Of a stretch of 60,876 bases of DNA, positions 2,828-32,116 are shown piece by piece. Below the pieces are notes generated by a model. It saw only the letters and a program-made list of their open reading frames with translations, made no database searches and was not told where the DNA came from. Position 1 is the first letter of the stretch. The number at the start of each line of letters is the position of its first letter. The translations under genes were made by a program, and so were the position numbers. Source of the DNA: Candidatus Woesearchaeota archaeon (GTDB lineage Archaea > Nanobdellota > Nanobdellia > Woesearchaeales > JACPJR01); assembly GCA_016187565.1 (NCBI GenBank), contig JACPJR010000008.1:1-60876 (forward strand), given 5' to 3'.

Positions 2828-3823
2828 TCAATCCCACTTCAGGCTTCCACCAGTCTGATATTCAGTTACTCGTGTTTCGAAGAAATTCTTCTCTTTGCTT
2901 AAGTCAGTTACTTCAGACATCCAAGGGAAGGGATTTTCCATGTTATACACTTTTGGCAATCCAATACGCTGAAGTCGTCGATCTGCAATATAGGTAACAT
3001 AATCAGCAAACTGTTCTGCATTAATACCGAGTACCCCTTTAGGGCAGGCATCAAGTGCATATATCTTTTCAAGCTCAACCGCTTTTTTGATCAAGTGAAC
3101 AATATCATCTTGAAATTCCTTTGTCCACAATTCTGGATTTTCTGCCTTAATAGTATTGATAAGGTCACAGCCAAAGGCGAGATGGACACTTTCATCACGC
3201 ATGATGTATTCAAATTGTTCTCCGATTCCAACCATTTTTCCTTGGCGTTTTAATGCCAACATCATGGCAAATCCTGCATAGAAAAAGATGCCTTCCATAA
3301 TAACATAATAGCCAATAAGATCATGGATAAACTTCTGGATATCCTGTTGTGTTCTTGTTTCAAACATCGGATCAAAGATTGACTTGGTTAAATCAACGAC
3401 AAAGTCGTCTTTCTCCTTGATTGAAGGGATCCTCTGATACATCGTGTATATTTCATCAGGGTTTAAACCTAAAGTGTCACAACAATAGATAAACGTATCC
3501 GTATGAATCGCCTCCTCATACGCCTGTCGAAGCAAATATTGCCGTGATTCTGGATTCGTGACATGACGATAAATGGCAAGAACAATATTATTAGCAGTAA
3601 GCGATTCTGCGGTAGAAAAAAATCCAAGATTCCAAAGGATCAATCGGCGTTCTGTTTCATTAAGAAACTGAGGATTCTTCCATTGCTCGACATCCTTCTG
3701 CATCGAAATCTCTTCAGGAACCCAATTGTTGGCAACACCGGTTTTATAATGTTCACGAGCCCAGTTGTAGGTCATTGGTAAGATCTTATTTGGATCGGTC
3801 TTTGGATTGTTGATGATTCCCAT
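2828..3823 (-). CDS. nrdB: Ribonucleotide reductase small subunit, class Ic (Mn/Fe, Phe at radical site)
   Basis: This 331-aa ferritin-like R2 subunit makes the oxidant used by NrdA to reduce ribonucleotides. The six metal ligands are visible: Glu73 (TAESL), Glu104 and His107 (EEAIH), Glu177 (VIMEG), Glu211 and His214 (DESVH). Residue 111, where class Ia enzymes have the radical tyrosine, is Phe, and the first ligand is Glu rather than Asp. Both features mark class Ic R2 proteins, which use a Mn(IV)/Fe(III) cofactor. Ligand spacings (31, 3, 4, 70, 34, 3) equal those of Chlamydia trachomatis R2 (E89, E120, H123, F127, E193, E227, H230). The acidic, aromatic tail matches the R1-docking peptide. 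The ATG follows GAGGGAT. Confidence 0.93.
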   Translation of the reverse strand: MGIINNPKTDPNKILPMTYNWAREHYKTGVANNWVPEEISMQKDVEQWKNPQFLNETERRLILWNLGFFSTAESLTANNIVLAIYRHVTNPESRQYLLRQAYEEAIHTDTFIYCCDTLGLNPDEIYTMYQRIPSIKEKDDFVVDLTKSIFDPMFETRTQQDIQKFIHDLIGYYVIMEGIFFYAGFAMMLALKRQGKMVGIGEQFEYIMRDESVHLAFGCDLINTIKAENPELWTKEFQDDIVHLIKKAVELEKIYALDACPKGVLGINAEQFADYVTYIADRRLQRIGLPKVYNMENPFPWMSEVTDLSKEKNFFETRVTEYQTGGSLKWD

Positions 3824-3859
3824 AGTTATCCCTCGGAGATTATTGATAACTCTTGAATA

Positions 3860-3901
3860 TAAAAAACAGACGCAAACATAGGATTTATGCTTACGTCCGT
3901 C
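3860..3901 (-). terminator. Hairpin plus T-tract between nrdA and nrdB
   Basis: On the minus strand an imperfect hairpin (arms around AGACG...CATA and TATG...CGTCT, 3866-3901) is followed directly by six T residues (3865-3860). It sits between the nrdA stop at 3950 and the nrdB start at 3823, so it could terminate the nrdR-nrdA transcript or attenuate read-through into nrdB. The T-tract runs into a TATA-like TTTTTATATTC, so nrdB may have its own promoter here. Confidence 0.5.
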
Positions 3902-3949
3902 TTCTCATTTGTTAAGGGGGAATGAGTATGATCACCTAAAGATTATAAT

Positions 3950-6763
3950 CTATTGACAAGCCTCGCAGTGAGGATCATTAAGCGAGCACACTTTTGGTGC
4001 CTTCTCAGCCGTCGTACTTTTTACTCCTTCCTGCATTGCTAAGCCCTCTTCTTCCTGTTGGCTTGTTTCTGATGCAAGCGCTTTGTATTCTCGCTTCTGA
4101 GTAAATCCATATTTTGCAGCATCGAGCGTTGACTTTTCAATTTGACTTGCACCCAATGAACGTAAGTAATAAGTAGTTTTGAGTCCCATGCGCCATGCAT
4201 AGAGATAGATATCATGCAACTCTCTTCCCGAAGTTCCTTTGTAAAAAATATTTACTGACTGACTCTGATCAATCCATTTCTGGCGGACAGCGGCATGGCG
4301 AATAATCCAATGCGGATCAATGGTAAAGGCCTCTTTGTACTTTTCCTTGAGATGTTCAGGAATGCCTGCAATCATTTGGAGATTTCCATCATAGTATTTT
4401 AAAAGTTCAAGCATCTCCTGATTCCAGAGGTGCAATTTCTTTAAATCTTCAACAAGGTAGGTATTCACTATGGTAAACTCACCGCTGATATTTGCTTTGA
4501 CATAGATGTTTTTGTAAATGGGCTCAATGCAGGGGAAGCACCCGGCAATATTGGAAATCGTTGCTGTTGGAGCTATAGCCATGGTGTTTGAATTTCTCAT
4601 GCCATATTTCTGAACATGCTCTCGAACCTTCTCCCAGGGAAGGGTTGTGTCTTTTGGTACCTCAATAGCCACTCCTCTTTCTTGTTCAAGCAACTGTAAT
4701 GAATCAATGGGAAAGATCCCTCGGTCCCATTTTGAACCTTTATAGGACGCATAGGTTCCTCGTTCCTTAGCCAATAGCGAAGATGCAAGAATAGCGTGAA
4801 AGGAAATGAATTCAAACAATTCATCGGCAAAACGAACCGCTTCTTCATTATCAAAAGGAAGATCAAGCATAAAGAGTACATCCTGTAATCCCATAACTCC
4901 TAAGCCTACAGGACGATGACGCAGGTTTGCCTGCTTTGCTTCCTGAGTTGGATAAAAATTAATATCAATAACATTGTCGAGCATACGAAGTGTCATGGCA
5001 ATCGTTTGTCCAAGAAGCTCTTTGTCTAGCCTTCCCTTTTCCACGTGTCGTGCAAGATTGATGCTTGCCAAATTACAGACAGCGGTTTCCTCAGCTGACG
5101 TGTTTAAGGTAATTTCAGTGCAGAGGTTAGAGCTATGAACAACACCGACATGGTCTTGGGGTGAACGAACATTACACGGATCTTTAAAAGTCATCCATGG
5201 ATGTCCGGTTTCGAAGAGCATAGTAATCATCTTACGCCAGAGCTGTTGAGCAGGTATTACCTTGAAGCGTTTTATCTTTCCTTCTTTTGCCTGTTGCTCA
5301 TAAGCCGTGTATTTTTGTTCAAAAGCTCTTCCATAACTATGGTGAAGGTCAGGGACTTCATGGGGAGAAAATAATGTCCAGTCTTGATGAGCAATAACGC
5401 GCTTCATGAAAAGGTCAGGAATCCAATTTGCCGTGTTCATATCATGCGTTCTTCGTCGTTCATCTCCAGTATTTTTTCGCAAATCCAAGAAATCTTCAAT
5501 GTCAAGATGCCAGGTTTCAAGATAAGCACAGGTAGCGCCTCGACGTTTTCCTGAACGGTTGATAGCAACCGTAACATCATTTGCTATCTTTAAAAAAGGA
5601 ACAACACCCTGACTTTCTACTTTCGTACTCTGGATATCTGCTCCTGTTGCCCGAATATTGGTCCAATCATTTCCTAGACCACCAGACCATTTTGAAAGTT
5701 GGGCATTATCACCAATACATTTGAAGATATGGCTAAGATCATCATTAATCGTTGTCAGATAGCAAGAGCTCAACTGTGGATGGGCCAATCCAGAATGGAA
5801 TAAGGTTGGGGTTGAAGACACGACCCGTAAACTTGAAAGCGCTTCATAAAAGCTTAGCGCAGCTGCTTCCTTTCGTGGCTCGTGCAATGCAAGGCCCATC
5901 GCAACACGCATCCAAAAGGATTGGGGCAATTCAAGTTTCTTATTGTTACATGTAACAAAGTAACGTTCATATAAGGTTTGTAGTCCAAGATACGTAAAAA
6001 AATCATCCCGCTCTGGCTTTAATCCCTGAGCAAGTGTTTCAAGGTTAAAGGAAAGAAGTTGTTTATCCATAATCTCAGAAGCAACTGCCTCTTGAATACC
6101 CCGAACAAACGCTTCTTGATAAAGTGCATGAAGTTGCCCCTCTTCCATTGACTGGTCAAATACCTCTTTGTAGAGTTTCTGGAGAAATAATCGTGCTGCA
6201 ACTTTATTATAGGCAGGATCTCGTTCAATAAATGCCGTACTTGCCAGGACAATGGCCTTTGCAAGTTCACCAGTTGGAATCTGGTCATATATATTTTTAA
6301 TAACTTCTTTTTCAATCGAGGTAAGGTCAACATCGTGCTCATATCCTTTGCTTGCGCGTTCAAGAGATTTTCGCAATTTCGTGAGATTAAAGAGTACTTG
6401 TTTCCCATCACGCTTTTGAACCGTTAATTTTCCTAATTTTGCACGTTGCATAACCTGTTCTTTCTGTTGTTCCCGTTCTTTTTGCCGCTCAGAACGGTAG
6501 AGGATGTAGGCTTTTGCAACCTCATACCATCCAGCCTTAACAAGGTGTTTTTCAACAACATCCTGGATGTTTTCAACATTTGGGTAGAAATCAGTAAATC
6601 TACTCTCAATTTCTTCAGTGATGGTTTTTACCAAGAGATCAAGTTCTTCTGGGCTTATTTTTGCTGCTACTGCACGAACTGCCTTAAGCAGGGCATTCCT
6701 TATCCGGACGACATCAAAATCAACAATTTCTCCCGTACGTTTGACAACCTTAAGCATACTCAT
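3950..6763 (-). CDS. nrdA: Ribonucleoside-diphosphate reductase large subunit
   Basis: The 937-residue R1 subunit reduces ribonucleoside diphosphates using the radical from NrdB. It starts with two ATP-cone regulatory domains in tandem (about residues 3-100, VVKRTG, and 113-205, VQKRDG). The catalytic barrel follows, with the first redox Cys in LSSCYL (about 331), the thiyl-radical Cys and Glu in NLCTEI (about 548), the partner Cys in AVCNLAS (about 562) and the [17 protein letters not shown] signature. The tail ends CEACQ, the shuttle cysteine pair. Multiple ATP cones are also typical of chlamydial R1, fitting the class Ic partner. The ATG overlaps the nrdR stop (ATGA), so nrdR-nrdA are coupled. 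Confidence 0.95.
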
Positions 6764-7923: not shown

Positions 7924-8925
7924 ATGAAAACAACTCTTCTTGTGGTTATTAGTCTGCTTATGCTCTTCCTTACTCTGCCCCCGAGTATTGCTGAAGAAGC
8001 AACAACTAGCGAGGGAGCGGTAAGCCAAGATGTTGGGATTCTACCTGACAGCCCTTGGTATGGGAGCAAACGATTCTTTGAGACCGTTGGTACCTTCTTT
8101 ACCGTCGGAGAGGAACAAAAAACCGAACGAGCATTGCAGTTGGCAGATCGACGCCTTCTTGAGGCTCAGGTCATGGCACGCGAAGGAAAAACAGCATATA
8201 TTGCTCCACTAACCCAAGAGTATCAGGATAAAGTTACCATTGCTTCTTCGTATGTTACCAAGAGTACAGAATATAAGGAACGTCTTGCAGAAACCGTGTC
8301 AGAAGCGACCTCACGCCAGATTAAGGTACTGGATAGCTTTGAAACCATCATTCCTGTTGAGGCAACTGCAACAGCAAAAGAAGCACGAAGCACAACCATT
8401 GCTGCTAACAAAGGAGCATTACAGGAGTTAAGCCAGTATAACCCCGTGCGAGCTGCTGAGATTGCTATGGGTGTTGCAGAAACAAGAGCTCAAGCAGTAA
8501 AGGAATATGCTGAACAAGGGTCTAGCGAGAGAGTTATTACTGCTGCTGCTGAATACGAGGAATATGCTACCTTCGGACAGGAGATTTCTACGATTGCTCG
8601 ACAGATAGGAACAGGAGAAACTGCTGTTGGAGAGGTTGTGGCTACGGCAACTGCCGTACATGTTGAAGTGTTGCAAAACGTTGCAACCATTGTTCCTGAT
8701 CAGGCACGAGAAAAAATTGAAGAGGTCATCGCAAAAGGTCAGGCCGTAGGAGAGGCTGTTGAAGGCAGAGGAGAGGCGATTCCTCCACCACCGTTACCAA
8801 CGGTTACCTCTGGACAAAGACCACCACAATCAATACGACCGAACGAGCAGATGGTTGAACAACCTCGGGTTGAAACAGGCACCAGCTCTGATACCATTGT
8901 TGAAAGTAATGTTGGTAGAGGGTAA
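7924..8925 (+). CDS. Secreted DUF5667-like helical protein
   Basis: MKTTLLVVISLLMLFLTLPPS is a Sec-type signal peptide, with likely cleavage around Ala-Glu-Glu at residue 24. The mature protein begins with VGILPDSPWYGSKRFFETV, the hallmark of DUF5667 (a LPDSPLYPLKR-like motif) common in archaeal and actinobacterial exported proteins. A long Ala/Glu-rich helical region follows (about 60-270), then a Pro-rich tail with no membrane anchor. The start at 7924 is chosen because AGGTG lies 6 nt before it; in-frame GTG and ATG codons at 7915 and 7918 overlap this signal. The role is unknown; it is probably an extracellular or cell-surface helical protein. Confidence 0.75.
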   Translation: MKTTLLVVISLLMLFLTLPPSIAEEATTSEGAVSQDVGILPDSPWYGSKRFFETVGTFFTVGEEQKTERALQLADRRLLEAQVMAREGKTAYIAPLTQEYQDKVTIASSYVTKSTEYKERLAETVSEATSRQIKVLDSFETIIPVEATATAKEARSTTIAANKGALQELSQYNPVRAAEIAMGVAETRAQAVKEYAEQGSSERVITAAAEYEEYATFGQEISTIARQIGTGETAVGEVVATATAVHVEVLQNVATIVPDQAREKIEEVIAKGQAVGEAVEGRGEAIPPPPLPTVTSGQRPPQSIRPNEQMVEQPRVETGTSSDTIVESNVGRG

Positions 8926-8985
8926 AGCTCAAAAAAAGGAGCAAGATTAAGAAGATTTATGAATCTATGCTAGTTACCGTGAACC

Positions 8986-9816
8986 ATGGAAACAAAAGAA
9001 GCCTATGATTTTTTTGAGCAGATGATTCAGCTGGCAGTACGCGAGGTTATGCAGGTTACGTGCAACCAGAACTGGGGTGTTGACCTCAAGAAGAACAATA
9101 CGCCAGTTACCAAGGCGGATAAACAGATCGATAAAACCTTAACAGCGTATGCAAAGGCAAAAGGCTTTTCAGTTATCTCTGAAGAAGGGGACCATGAGAA
9201 AGCTATCGTACAATCCGCCTCTTATGTAACCATTGATCCTATCGATGGAACCTTGGGCTATATTGCTCATGTTGAAGCTGCTCTTGCCTCAAAAAATATC
9301 AAGGCATTTCTTGACGACACCATGAAGCCAAGTACTGATTTCTGCCTGCTCATAGGAATTGTCGAACAGGGAAAGGCGCGATTTGGTTGCTGTTATCATT
9401 ACCTCACCAAAGAACGGATTTTTATTGACAGTAATCACAAAGAACGATGTATTACCCAGAATAAAAAAAGGTTGTACACGGGAAAAGACGTCCTCTATAC
9501 AGACCCTACGGTTACCAGTACCATCGTGGAACAGATTAAAAAAATGGCTGATATTAAAGTCATTTCGCTCCATCCCCTCGGCTTAACATCCCAGTACTGC
9601 TTCATTAACGACCATGCAAACGCAGCAACAGTTATTGAACATTCTCATCCAGGAATTTGGGATCTTGTGCCGGGTATGGCAACGGCACAGGCATTTGGTG
9701 GTGTTGTGGCTGATGGAAACGGAGATCCAATCACCTTAAATAAGTACATCATGATCCCCGGCAATGGGTGCCGTGTCATAAGAGGAGAACGATTTCTATT
9801 TTTGCGTAACTTTTAA
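8986..9816 (+). CDS. Inositol monophosphatase-family phosphatase
   Basis: The 276-residue protein carries the Li+-sensitive phosphatase motifs in order: a substrate-side Thr/Asp element (TPVTKADKQID, about 39-49), the metal ligand Glu in SEEG (about 65), the core DPIDGTLGY (about 84-92) and the second core IWDLVPGMATAQAFGG (about 224-239). These residues hold Mg2+ for hydrolysis of sugar- or nucleotide-phosphates. The family includes inositol-1-phosphatase, fructose-1,6-bisphosphatase and 3'-phosphoadenosine phosphatase (CysQ); the sequence alone does not decide between them. It is followed 23 nt later by dus on the same strand. Confidence 0.85.
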   Translation: METKEAYDFFEQMIQLAVREVMQVTCNQNWGVDLKKNNTPVTKADKQIDKTLTAYAKAKGFSVISEEGDHEKAIVQSASYVTIDPIDGTLGYIAHVEAALASKNIKAFLDDTMKPSTDFCLLIGIVEQGKARFGCCYHYLTKERIFIDSNHKERCITQNKKRLYTGKDVLYTDPTVTSTIVEQIKKMADIKVISLHPLGLTSQYCFINDHANAATVIEHSHPGIWDLVPGMATAQAFGGVVADGNGDPITLNKYIMIPGNGCRVIRGERFLFLRNF

Positions 9817-27503: not shown

Positions 27504-27525
27504 GATGGATTTTATTAAAGGTTGT

Positions 27526-29526
27526 ATGGAGATCGTTATTGGAAAACGAAAAAATGAATTGCTTACATTACAAAGCAAAACATTACAGAAACATCTGGTA
27601 GCGCTTGGAGGAAGTGGAAGTGGAAAGACGGTTCTCCTCAAAGGAATTATTGAAGAAGCAGCCCTTCAAGGAATTCCGAGTATTGTTTTTGACCTGCAGG
27701 GAGATCTCAGTTCACTTGGGCTTAAGGCAAGTCTTGAAGAGGTTCAGAAAAATGGGCGATCTCAGGATTCATTAATACCGTTTAGTAATGTTTCAGTACG
27801 AATTTATACGCCAGGTGCAGAAATTGGACTCCCCCTTCGTATAAGCCCATTTGTCGTTCCCAAAACTCAGGAATATGATGAACAATTATTGAACGTGTCT
27901 GTTGCAAATCTCATCAATCTTTTAGGTTATACCCCCTCCTCGGAGAAGTATCAAACTGCAGCAGCTTTGTTGCGTCAGGTATTAAGTAACCAGACGAAGC
28001 ATCAGACAATTACAGAACTTTCTGAGCTCATTGACCTCCTGTTAGATCAACAAGAAGCCCTTCAAGAGGAAACACTTTGTTCAGAAGCAGAAATTAAAAC
28101 ACTCATCAAGAAGTTAAAAACAACACTGCTCAGCCCTAGTGCTAAACTCTTAACGCATGGCATTCCCTTAAGCATTGATCTCTTTATGAACAAAAATCAG
28201 ATCAGTGTTATTTATCTAAATCATCTCGTAAATGAACGGGAAAAAGACTTTTTTATAACAACGTTTGTCATGGAACTTTATCGATGGATGCTGCACCATC
28301 CCTCACAAGAGCTGCAGCTTCTCTTTTGTCTTGATGAGATTGCTCCCTACTTACCTGCAGGGATGAAACAAACCGCAGCAAAAGAAAGTTTGAAGCTTTT
28401 CTTTAAGCAAGCCAGAAAGTATGGTATTGGTTGTCTTGTTGCAACACAAAATCCAGGAGACATTGATTACAAAGCATTTGCTCAGTTCTCAACATGGTGT
28501 TTGGGAAGATTAACAACCGAGCAGGATCGAAAAAAAGTAAAAGAATCATTAGAAAGTTTTGGAACTTCTCTTGATATCAAGACTCTTGCGAGCATGCAGC
28601 AGGGACATTTTCTTCTCTTCTCTCCTGATGAAAAAATGGATATTACCGATTTCCAGACGCAATGGCTTCTCAGCCGCCATAAAACACTAACCGAAGGAGA
28701 AATAAAAGAGCTTATGCAGCCATATCAACCACTACTTCCCACAGAAAAGAAAAAGAAATTTGAGATTGATAAGGGTAGTTTCAATGTTTCTCAGCAAAAA
28801 AGTTATCGGTATGTTCAGCAAAATTTTAGCGAAGAAGAAATACATGAAACTATCGAAAAAAATAGAAAAAAGATTAGCTTGTTCCCATCAAAAAAAGAAG
28901 AAGTTGCATCGATAACAACAATGTTTTTTCCATTGCTGAAACTTCAGATTAGGGGAAAAGAAAAGAAATTGTTAGGGTTTTCCTCTGAAACAAAAGAGTT
29001 TGACATCCTTGTTGATCTTTATACTGGTGATGTCCTTCAGTATAAGAATGGATCTATGAAAAAAAAGACTGGACTGCAAGATCTCTTTACTTTACAAAAA
29101 GATGAGATACTCCTGCTTAAGAAGCTTATTTCAGGGGTAGAAGAAGAAGAAGCATTGGCAAAAATGCTTAATCTGAGTGACTATTTGCTCAAAAAAAATC
29201 TTCTTAGTCTTAAAAGAAAGGGACATATCGAGCAAATAAAAAAAGATACTTCAAAGTCACGATGGAGGGTAACTAAACGTTCTTATCTACCGCCCTCTGC
29301 TGAAAAGCTCCATACTGATCAACTGAGTTACGGCGTTTCAGAAAAAGGAAAAAAATTACCAGAAAACATTGATCAGAAGCAGGTTATTCTTGCTATTACA
29401 ACATGGTTTGGTTATGCCATCGTAAACACCATGGTCGTCTATCTTCCAGTTGTGGAAATGATATTACAAGGTAAGCATAAACGGATTATCCAATTTAATG
29501 GATTCACGAAAGAGAAAATACAGTAA
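27526..29526 (+). CDS. HerA/FtsK-like P-loop ATPase (DUF87/DUF853 type)
   Basis: MEIVIGKRKNELLTLQSKTL precedes a Walker A motif GGSGSGKT (about residues 29-36). IVFDLQGDLSSL follows, then Walker B LLFCLDEIAPYLP (about 265) and a sensor-like VATQNPGDIDYKAF. This layout is that of the HerA-like ATPases annotated as DUF853, hexameric translocases of uncertain substrate. The C-terminal 250 residues are Lys-rich and include a winged-helix-like repeat (LISGVEEEEALAKMLNLSDYLLKKN). No nurA or other end-resection gene is nearby, so a role in recombination is not supported here. A cryptic translocation role is the safer reading. Confidence 0.8.
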   Translation: MEIVIGKRKNELLTLQSKTLQKHLVALGGSGSGKTVLLKGIIEEAALQGIPSIVFDLQGDLSSLGLKASLEEVQKNGRSQDSLIPFSNVSVRIYTPGAEIGLPLRISPFVVPKTQEYDEQLLNVSVANLINLLGYTPSSEKYQTAAALLRQVLSNQTKHQTITELSELIDLLLDQQEALQEETLCSEAEIKTLIKKLKTTLLSPSAKLLTHGIPLSIDLFMNKNQISVIYLNHLVNEREKDFFITTFVMELYRWMLHHPSQELQLLFCLDEIAPYLPAGMKQTAAKESLKLFFKQARKYGIGCLVATQNPGDIDYKAFAQFSTWCLGRLTTEQDRKKVKESLESFGTSLDIKTLASMQQGHFLLFSPDEKMDITDFQTQWLLSRHKTLTEGEIKELMQPYQPLLPTEKKKKFEIDKGSFNVSQQKSYRYVQQNFSEEEIHETIEKNRKKISLFPSKKEEVASITTMFFPLLKLQIRGKEKKLLGFSSETKEFDILVDLYTGDVLQYKNGSMKKKTGLQDLFTLQKDEILLLKKLISGVEEEEALAKMLNLSDYLLKKNLLSLKRKGHIEQIKKDTSKSRWRVTKRSYLPPSAEKLHTDQLSYGVSEKGKKLPENIDQKQVILAITTWFGYAIVNTMVVYLPVVEMILQGKHKRIIQFNGFTKEKIQ

Positions 29527-29638
29527 ATCTTTCGTTCACAAACCTTATAAATGAATTCACTATAGGGAGTGATTATTTAGACTTATTTATACTCAAAGAC
29601 ATTAATTTTCGTAATAATTTGTATGTCTTTTCCTAATA

Positions 29639-29678
29639 AGCAAAGGACATAAAGTTACGATTATTAGTGTCCTTTGCT
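29639..29678. promoter_or_regulatory. 11-bp inverted repeat upstream of ccdA
   Basis: AGCAAAGGACA (29639-29649) and TGTCCTTTGCT (29668-29678) are perfectly complementary around an 18-nt loop. The element lies just upstream of a TATA-like ATTTAAATT (about 29689-29697) and 39 bp before the ccdA start. It has no T-tract, so it looks more like an operator for a regulator of the redox genes than a terminator. Confidence 0.45.
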
Positions 29679-29716
29679 ATAAAACTGATTTAAATTTTAA
29701 GAGAAGAAGTCAAAAG

Positions 29717-30466
29717 ATGACCATGGCATCACAACGAAACTGGACTATTTTTTTTTGTAGCGTCTTTTTTGTCCTTGGATTTTCTCTGATATTTTCACTT
29801 CTTGGGGCATTGTTACAAAGTGTTCTCGTAAGCTTTGCTTATGAAACACAGCAATGGCTCGGTCGCATTGGCGGCATTATTATCATACTCTTTGGCATCT
29901 CCTTATTGGGGCTCATCAGCATTCCTTTCCTCAATACTGAGCACAAATTGTTAGTCAAAAAAAGATTTCAGTCTGCCTATCTTACCTCTTTTCTGTTTGG
30001 GGCTGCATTTGCCATTGGATGGACTCCGTGTGTAGGCTCTGTGCTCGGAGCTGTACTTACTTTAGCTATAACACAGCCTACTGGAGCATTCTTTCTGCTT
30101 CTCGCCTATTCCCTCGGCTTGGGCTTGCCATTCTTACTCCTTGGACTTTTTACCAATAAAGCACAATCCCTTTTACAAACAGTTAATCCTTGGCTGAAAT
30201 ACCTCCAGATCTTTTTTGGGATTATCCTCATTGGCGTAGGTATTCTTGTGTTTACGAATCAATTGGGCAAGTTAGCCAACTTTGCGCTTGCATCAGACGT
30301 TCTCTTAAGGCTTGAATCCTCGACACTAAGCCTCGACTCAGGAGCATCAGTAACCTTGGGTATTGCCTTTTTCGCTGGTCTTGTTTCCTTCCTCAGCCCT
30401 TGTGTACTTCCCATCCTTCCAGGATTTTTGTCATACCTTGCTTCAATTGCCGTAAAAAAAGAATAG
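29717..30466 (+). CDS. ccdA: Circularly permuted CcdA-type thiol-electron transporter
   Basis: The 249-residue, six-helix membrane protein carries both redox cysteines of the CcdA/DsbD-beta family: Cys105 in GWTPCVG and Cys229 in FLSPCVLP. In CcdA the helix with SPCVLP is the first; here it is the last, and the protein begins with the segment that normally follows it (FFVLGFSLIFSLLGAL). Helix order is 2-3-4-5-6-1. No copy of the missing helix is encoded upstream. CcdA moves electrons from cytosolic thioredoxin to extracytoplasmic thiol proteins. It is followed 18 nt later by a DipZ-like thioredoxin and then a VKOR homologue. Confidence 0.85.
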   Translation: MTMASQRNWTIFFCSVFFVLGFSLIFSLLGALLQSVLVSFAYETQQWLGRIGGIIIILFGISLLGLISIPFLNTEHKLLVKKRFQSAYLTSFLFGAAFAIGWTPCVGSVLGAVLTLAITQPTGAFFLLLAYSLGLGLPFLLLGLFTNKAQSLLQTVNPWLKYLQIFFGIILIGVGILVFTNQLGKLANFALASDVLLRLESSTLSLDSGASVTLGIAFFAGLVSFLSPCVLPILPGFLSYLASIAVKKE

Positions 30467-30484: not shown

Positions 30485-31681
30485 ATGCAAAAAAAAACAA
30501 TTTTGTTGGGCATAGTCGTTCTATCCATCATCGCTATCATTTACGCTATTGAACATCAAAGAGCAAGCACCCTAACAACCGAGGAGGGAAGCATAGAACT
30601 CGTTGATAAAGGAGAACAACGAATTGTAAAAAATCCTACTGAACTCAACAGCACCATAGAATCTCTTGAAGATGAGAATGAAAGAGCAAAGAGAATTGTA
30701 GAAAAAGAGAAACAATATCAACGTGCACCAGAATTAGTAGGGATACAAGGGTATCTTAACACTGAGGATGGGCTAAAGATTTCAGATTTAGATAATAAAG
30801 TAGTGCTTGTTGATTTTTGGACCTACACCTGTATCAATTGTATCAGAACCTTACCACATCTCAATGCGTGGAATCAAAAGTATGGTGATAAAGGTCTGGT
30901 CATCATCGGTGTCCATACACCTGAATTTGCCTTTGAAAAAGAATATGAAAATGTAAGGATAGCTGTTGAAAAATACGGCATTAAATACCCTGTTGTGCTT
31001 GATAATGATTATAAAACATGGCGTGCATATCAAAATAGATATTGGCCACACAAGTATCTTATTGATGTTGATGGTTTTATCAGGTATGATCATATCGGTG
31101 AAGGCTCATACGATGAAACTGAAGAGAAGATCCGAGAACTTTTAACAGAAACCGGTGTTTCGCTTGATGAAAGTACCAACGTTCAAGATCTAACACCTCA
31201 AAAAAGAGGTACTCCAGAACTCTATACGGGCTATGACTTTGCTATCCCCCGTGGACAGAATATAGGAAACGATGAGGGACTACAGCGTAACCAAATGATC
31301 AATTACACCTTTCCATCAACCACGAGAAAAAATACCATTTACCTTAGTGGTCTGTGGAAGAGCAACCCAGAAAACCTTGAAAGTAGCGAAAAGAATGGTT
31401 CATTACTTTTAGACTACGAAGCGAGCTCGGTAAATTTTGTTGCAATGCCTTTAGAAAATGGAAATCCAGTAAGAGTTTTTGTCAGTTTTGATAATCATCC
31501 ATTGCCAAAAACAATGGCTGGTGAAGACGTCCAGTTCACCAATGACACCGATGCTGCATTTATTCTCGTCAGTGAGCCAAGACTATACAATGTTATCAAG
31601 AGTAATGAGTGGGACATGCATCTGCTCATCTTAACAGCAGAACAAGAAGGATTTGTTCTCAGTGCCTTTACATTTGGATAA
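30485..31681 (+). CDS. Membrane-anchored DipZ-like thioredoxin
   Basis: An N-terminal hydrophobic anchor (about residues 5-22) precedes a TlpA-type thioredoxin domain with active site CINC in VDFWTYTCINCIRTLP (about 110-125) and HTPEF, GIKYPVVLDNDYKTWRAY, and the cis-Pro region WPHKYLID. A C-terminal beta-rich domain (about 240-398; YTGYDFAIPRGQNIGND) resembles the last domain of DipZ. In DipZ these parts are fused to CcdA; here they are encoded by separate genes 18 nt apart. It probably accepts electrons from CcdA outside the membrane and reduces partner disulfides. Confidence 0.88.
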   Translation: MQKKTILLGIVVLSIIAIIYAIEHQRASTLTTEEGSIELVDKGEQRIVKNPTELNSTIESLEDENERAKRIVEKEKQYQRAPELVGIQGYLNTEDGLKISDLDNKVVLVDFWTYTCINCIRTLPHLNAWNQKYGDKGLVIIGVHTPEFAFEKEYENVRIAVEKYGIKYPVVLDNDYKTWRAYQNRYWPHKYLIDVDGFIRYDHIGEGSYDETEEKIRELLTETGVSLDESTNVQDLTPQKRGTPELYTGYDFAIPRGQNIGNDEGLQRNQMINYTFPSTTRKNTIYLSGLWKSNPENLESSEKNGSLLLDYEASSVNFVAMPLENGNPVRVFVSFDNHPLPKTMAGEDVQFTNDTDAAFILVSEPRLYNVIKSNEWDMHLLILTAEQEGFVLSAFTFG

Positions 31682-31708: not shown

Positions 31709-32116
31709 ATGGTACAAGTAACACAAGCTATCCAATGGATTTCCGTTCTTGGTTTCCTGCTATCAGCGTATGCGCTTTGGGTTGAGTATCATGCTCGAAA
31801 AAAATGGTCAAAAAAGCCATACAAAGCATTGTGTGATCTTGCTGAGCAAATATCTTGTACCAAAGCATTTCAAAGTCCGTATGGACGGATTTTTGGCATA
31901 TCTAATGGGGTTTACGGGCTTATGGTATACAGTCTTATATTATTTCTTACGTGGAGTTATCCCCTGTTGATTGTTCCAGTGAGCTTGATTACTGTAGTTG
32001 TTTCAATATATCTCGGTTTTATTTCCTTTTTTAGGATCAAGAATTTCTGTCTAGTGTGTATGCTTATCTATGGCATTAATGTTGCTCTCTTAATTTTAAG
32101 CGTTTCCCTCTTGTAA
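31709..32116 (+). CDS. Vitamin K epoxide reductase (VKOR) family protein
   Basis: The 135-residue protein has four membrane helices, the loop cysteines Cys42 and Cys50 (LCDLAEQISC), the conserved SN in GISNGVYG (65-66) and the active-site CLVC (Cys114-Cys117). VKOR homologues reoxidise a DsbA-like partner and pass electrons to quinone, so this is an oxidising enzyme next to the reducing CcdA/DipZ pair. The gene begins 27 nt after the thioredoxin gene and likely belongs to the same operon. No DsbA homologue is visible nearby. Confidence 0.9.
   Translation: MVQVTQAIQWISVLGFLLSAYALWVEYHARKKWSKKPYKALCDLAEQISCTKAFQSPYGRIFGISNGVYGLMVYSLILFLTWSYPLLIVPVSLITVVVSIYLGFISFFRIKNFCLVCMLIYGINVALLILSVSLL

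Follow-up and report, generated by a model that had tools for sequence, protein, structure and literature searches.

A CcdA-type membrane protein with a circularly permuted helix order, inferred from sequence and recurring in archaea and bacteria

Results

Genes and features of the locus

The window analyzed here, a 60,876-nucleotide stretch of Candidatus Woesearchaeota contig JACPJR010000008.1, encodes on its forward strand a 249-residue protein (29717-30466, ATG start, stop codon 30464-30466) that we annotate as a circularly permuted CcdA. PF02683 (DsbD_TM) matches the open reading frame in two stretches, with 52.6 bits against a gathering cut-off of 27.1. FVLGFS and GWTPC motifs occur in the N-terminal portion, and SPCVLP lies in the last helix. 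The chain opens with the equivalent of TM2 (residues 9-34, 29741-29818), an AlphaFold2 (AF2) helix from residue 9 that corresponds to canonical profile positions from 46 onward. It is followed by TM3 (residues about 47-69, 29855-29923), placed by the AF2 model and charge analysis, and by TM4 (residues 87-118, 29975-30070), which carries GWTPC and the redox residue Cys105 (codon 30029-30031), a cysteine present in all permuted and canonical rows of our alignments. TM5 (residues about 122-144, 30080-30148) and TM6 (residues about 157-180, 30185-30256) were taken from the AF2 model. A new, predicted extracytoplasmic TM6-TM1 linker with few Lys or Arg residues (residues 181-208, 30257-30340), variable in length across the family, leads to the equivalent of TM1, now last (residues 209-243, 30341-30445) and broken at SPCVLP, with redox Cys229 at codon 30401-30403. 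All of these parts lie on the + strand. The codons thus located agree with a preliminary description, made from the DNA letters alone, which placed TPC at Cys105 and the PCVLP helix with Cys229 at the C-terminus. Its further claim that no leftover first helix lies upstream also held, as no SPC-type helix was found in any of the six frames over 29401-29760.

Directly downstream on the + strand is a gene for a membrane-anchored TlpA/ResA-like thioredoxin (CINC) with a C-terminal Thioredoxin_10 domain (30485-31681), whose product resembles the soluble half of DipZ (PDB 2HYX, E 5.7e-57). The next gene on this strand encodes a VKOR-family disulfide-forming protein (31709-32116; PF07884, 90.4 bits), likely the oxidizing counterpart. 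On the + strand, the permuted ccdA is immediately preceded by a HerA/DUF87-type ATPase gene (27505-29526).

Helix order of the encoded protein

Both cysteines expected of a CcdA/DsbD_TM protein, in PC.LP of TM1 and TPC of TM4, are present as Cys229 and Cys105. The expected order 1-2-3-4-5-6 is not met, and the observed order is 2-3-4-5-6-1. Against the chain of Thermus thermophilus CcdA (5VKV), residues 12-191 align to 40-211 and residues 211-243 to 2-34, so that the two blocks are swapped. A profile hidden Markov model (HMM) built from 51 canonical CcdAs likewise matched the encoded order as two domains, of 214.8 bits (positions 46-234) and 44.0 bits (positions 4-41), and with the last helix put first it returned a single domain of 270.6 bits covering positions 4-234. 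A cut just after TM6, within the same TM6-TM1 linker, also gave one domain (261.6 bits), and rotation at cuts in the loops after TM2, TM3, TM4 or TM5 left the match in two. Because only cuts in the TM6-TM1 linker, among the loops tested, yield a one-piece match, the helix order is far beyond chance. When the query was doubled, the alignment check proposed at the outset, one domain of the canonical profile crossed the join. The gain on rotation was at least 29.9 bits in 58/58 permuted proteins tested (mean 55.9). Overall, the swapped 5VKV blocks, the one-piece rotated score and the conserved cysteines bear out the earlier proposal of a permuted order with both cysteines kept, and support assignment of the open reading frame, at the level of sequence, as a circularly permuted CcdA.

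Some tRNAs come from permuted RNA genes that are processed through circular forms, and it is conceivable that circular RNA or splicing likewise restores the order after transcription, leaving a canonical mature protein. We find this scarcely credible, since the stop codon at 30464-30466 follows shortly after TM1 and a circularized message could therefore not join TM1 to TM2; the other permuted open reading frames listed end in the same way.

Predicted structure and membrane topology

AF2, run on 53 permuted proteins, returned a model with a pLDDT of 84.3 and a pTM of 0.81. SPCVLP interrupts the last helix of this model (209-224, 233-247), much as TM1 of a canonical relative is interrupted (2-16, 25-36). 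In Foldseek searches the sole confident PDB match of both the permuted and the canonical model was CcdA 5VKV, with TM scores of 0.47/0.51 for the permuted model versus 0.54/0.56 for the canonical control. The method depends on chain order, so the 202-column alignment of the permuted model does not place the moved helix. That this helix packs in the TM1 place is thus an inference without a superposition. The long TM6-TM1 linker would also permit a domain-swapped dimer, in which the last helix takes up the TM1 position in a neighboring subunit instead of in its own chain, and nothing computed excludes such a swap. We nonetheless regard it as unlikely: the canonical tails that the linker connects are of comparable length, and the monomer is modeled with confidence at the pTM given above.

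Conservation across the 53 permuted proteins extends to 27 invariant columns, including P104, C105, P228, C229, P232 and P235, and both cysteines were found in 56 + 18 permuted rows and 45 canonical rows. Positive charges concentrate in the N-tail, the TM3-4 loop, the TM5-6 loop and the C-tail, and in the archaeal proteins the Lys plus Arg count (K+R) is low in the TM2-3, TM4-5 and TM6-TM1 segments. Mean K+R values of the new tails are about 2 (N-tail) and 1-2 (C-tail), and those of archaeal permuted versus canonical proteins are about 5.9 versus 5.1 in TM3-4 and about 2.8 versus 3.1 in TM5-6. Canonical CcdA/DsbD-beta begins on the outer side and, after six helices, ends there. By the positive-inside rule, the K+R pattern therefore predicts that both termini of the permuted protein are cytosolic, opposite to those of canonical CcdA, which implies that helix orientation is kept and the ends switch side. 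A flipped topology of the termini, as first suspected, is consistent with these charges. As the halves of CcdA are known inverted pseudo-repeats, the whole protein might instead insert upside down, with its termini outside and its cysteines facing the other way. However, archaeal permuted proteins have their Lys/Arg-rich loops at the same places in the fold as canonical ones, and the new tails carry positive charge, leaving this arrangement very improbable.

Distribution and coexistence of both orders

Overall, DPANN archaea and Chloroflexota yielded about 75 permuted CcdAs and Actinomycetota one more, with both cysteines present; these counts include some near relatives, start codons in the alignments were chosen automatically, and certain permuted lineages are known from few sequences. 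In the phylum of the window, 59/371 genomes had a match at E 1e-20, of which, judged from match ranges, about 32 were collinear (permuted) and about 28 canonical, with 1 genome holding both. Sequences read out in full place permuted forms in Woesearchaeota, Aenigmatarchaeota, Micrarchaeota, one Diapherotrites and one Ryanbacteria-labeled genome, and 8/12 matches in a Micrarchaeota sample were permuted. When a permuted protein from Chloroflexi served as the query, many Chloroflexota matches were collinear, and the fetched loci bear out no fewer than 18 distinct permuted proteins in addition to canonical ones. One permuted protein came from an Actinomycetota sample. At the thresholds used, matches in the Thermoproteota, Pseudomonadota and Bacillota samples were all canonical, with no permuted form. 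The look at related genomes suggested at the outset thus finds this order in dozens of independent ones.

This recurrence also disposes of the concern that the gene might reflect an assembly error, a sequencing error or decay, which the fragmented state of the window's genome (35 contigs) could otherwise raise. The order is shared by dozens of genomes from several phyla, the frames are open and the invariant columns noted above persist across 53 proteins. Recurrence across genomes rules out assembly error as the source of the permuted order, and we give artifact or decay practically no weight.

Three permuted sequences and one discarded candidate merit separate mention. The Actinomycetota protein (L168, 2534-3277) has CIGCIG instead of TPC in TM4 and possibly represents a third lineage. 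The one from the Ryanbacteria-labeled genome (L003) groups inside the archaeal clade, pointing to horizontal transfer or a misbinned contig. A Chloroflexota permuted CcdA (L149/L140, G579:C91:8453-9121) carries a long additional hydrophobic segment, which looks like extra helices placed between TM2 and TM3. L080, on a cut-off contig, was dropped because its TM1 hit fell inside the body match, at the TM4 pseudo-repeat.

Identity between permuted and canonical proteins reaches about 57%, and one woesearchaeal genome (L169) encodes both. Its permuted gene (3533-4279) has a DipZ-like partner and its canonical gene (8827-9534) a TlpA-like partner; the two lie about 4.5 kb apart, are 51% identical and are each followed by their own, different thioredoxin gene. 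In archaea, most permuted ccdA genes are immediately followed by a DipZ-like thioredoxin gene, a neighbor that they share with close canonical ccdA genes, those of Nitrosopumilus among them. Bacterial neighborhoods vary: in Chloroflexota, one permuted gene adjoins DsbA-like thioredoxin and rhodanese genes, another adjoins a rhodanese gene, and others have unrelated neighbors.

Number of origins

Trees restricted to TM2-TM6 placed the permuted proteins of archaea and those of bacteria in distinct, well supported groups, with canonical proteins interspersed in both. A single clade was rejected for all permuted proteins together (log-likelihood difference 145.6, p-AU 1.5e-5) but not for the archaeal ones alone (p-AU 0.284) or the bacterial ones alone (p-AU 0.157). 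Because the joint clade is rejected and the single archaeal and bacterial clades are not, the order is inferred from these sequences to have changed at least twice; the trees do not fix the direction or the exact number of events. Permuted CcdA is thus widespread, arose more than once and usually occupies the operon position of canonical CcdA, which goes beyond what a first reading of the sequence alone could provide.

Discussion

We put the probability at roughly 90% that the protein, a natural circular permutation by one TM helix, functions as a transmembrane thiol electron carrier of the CcdA type. The data show the helix order, its retention across genomes, the retained cysteines, the operon and more than one origin. 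Function and topology are inferred, without experimental data; a working CcdA with an ordinary fold and relocated termini is the most likely reading, and its working mechanism is most likely that of ordinary CcdA. The chain begins at TM2 and finishes with TM1. A linker of about 25-30 residues would bridge the former C-terminus, behind TM6, and the former N-terminus, ahead of TM1, both on the outer side of the membrane. The new ends would be located in the former cytosolic TM1-TM2 loop, shifting the termini from outside to inside. Each helix could retain its place and orientation, so a disulfide between Cys229 of the old TM1 and Cys105 of TM4 would still be possible. We infer that this intramembrane disulfide would take electrons from cytosolic thioredoxin and pass them to the neighbor-encoded TlpA/DipZ-like thioredoxin, a step for which the operon is the only support. 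A likely origin, also inferred, would be the in-frame fusion of tandem ccdA copies with subsequent loss of the first TM1 and the last TM2-TM6.

The closest precedent is the relationship of VKOR to DsbB, which a 2015 paper put forward as the first instance of circularly permuted helical membrane proteins (PMC4555120). It too concerns a disulfide-pathway membrane protein with a natural permutation, but there a helix pair moved (ABCD to CDAB), the termini stay on their side and the families are remote (PMC4555120). In CcdA, by contrast, one helix moved, the termini are predicted to switch side, the two orders reach the identity given above and they coexist in one genome. Helix pairs have been suggested as the building block of helical membrane proteins and the smallest unit that can be permuted (PMC4555120), a view that a single-helix permutation, if true, would contradict. 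The preliminary description knew of no described permuted CcdA, and the open-access literature searched here yielded no account of CcdA or DsbD in permuted form, most subscription journals being outside the scope of that search. We consider it very likely that these proteins represent a natural, recurrent single-helix permutation of a polytopic membrane protein in which the termini change side, fold and function are kept and both orders coexist in at least one genome. With identity of up to about 57%, equivalent operons and coexistence in one cell, no twilight-zone comparison is needed, which makes permuted CcdA an exceptionally clear natural example of circular permutation in a membrane protein. 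Together, the two orders offer a natural experiment on insertion order and terminal topology as constraints on membrane protein folding. For automatic annotation, a family profile may mask the altered topology.

Relative to known systems, the protein shares with CcdA (PF02683; 5VKV) six helices, both intramembrane cysteines, the SPCVLP and GWTPC motifs and the charge pattern, and differs in its order, predicted cytosolic termini and extra TM6-TM1 linker. DipZ fuses CcdA to an extracytoplasmic thioredoxin/Thioredoxin_10 half (2HYX), of which the neighboring gene encodes a close homologue. Unlike in DipZ, CcdA and thioredoxin are here on separate genes (29717-30466 and 30485-31681) rather than in one polypeptide, and a thioredoxin fused to the permuted C-terminus would end up on the wrong side of the membrane. 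The DsbD beta domain belongs to the same transmembrane family, but the permuted protein has only six helices in its 249 residues, a different order and neither the N- nor the C-terminal soluble extracytoplasmic domain. The window's genome also encodes a canonical-order CcdA-family paralogue of 333 residues (L109, 1225-2223; G000:C9), which has an N-terminal signal-like stretch and adjoins a small cupredoxin-looking protein.
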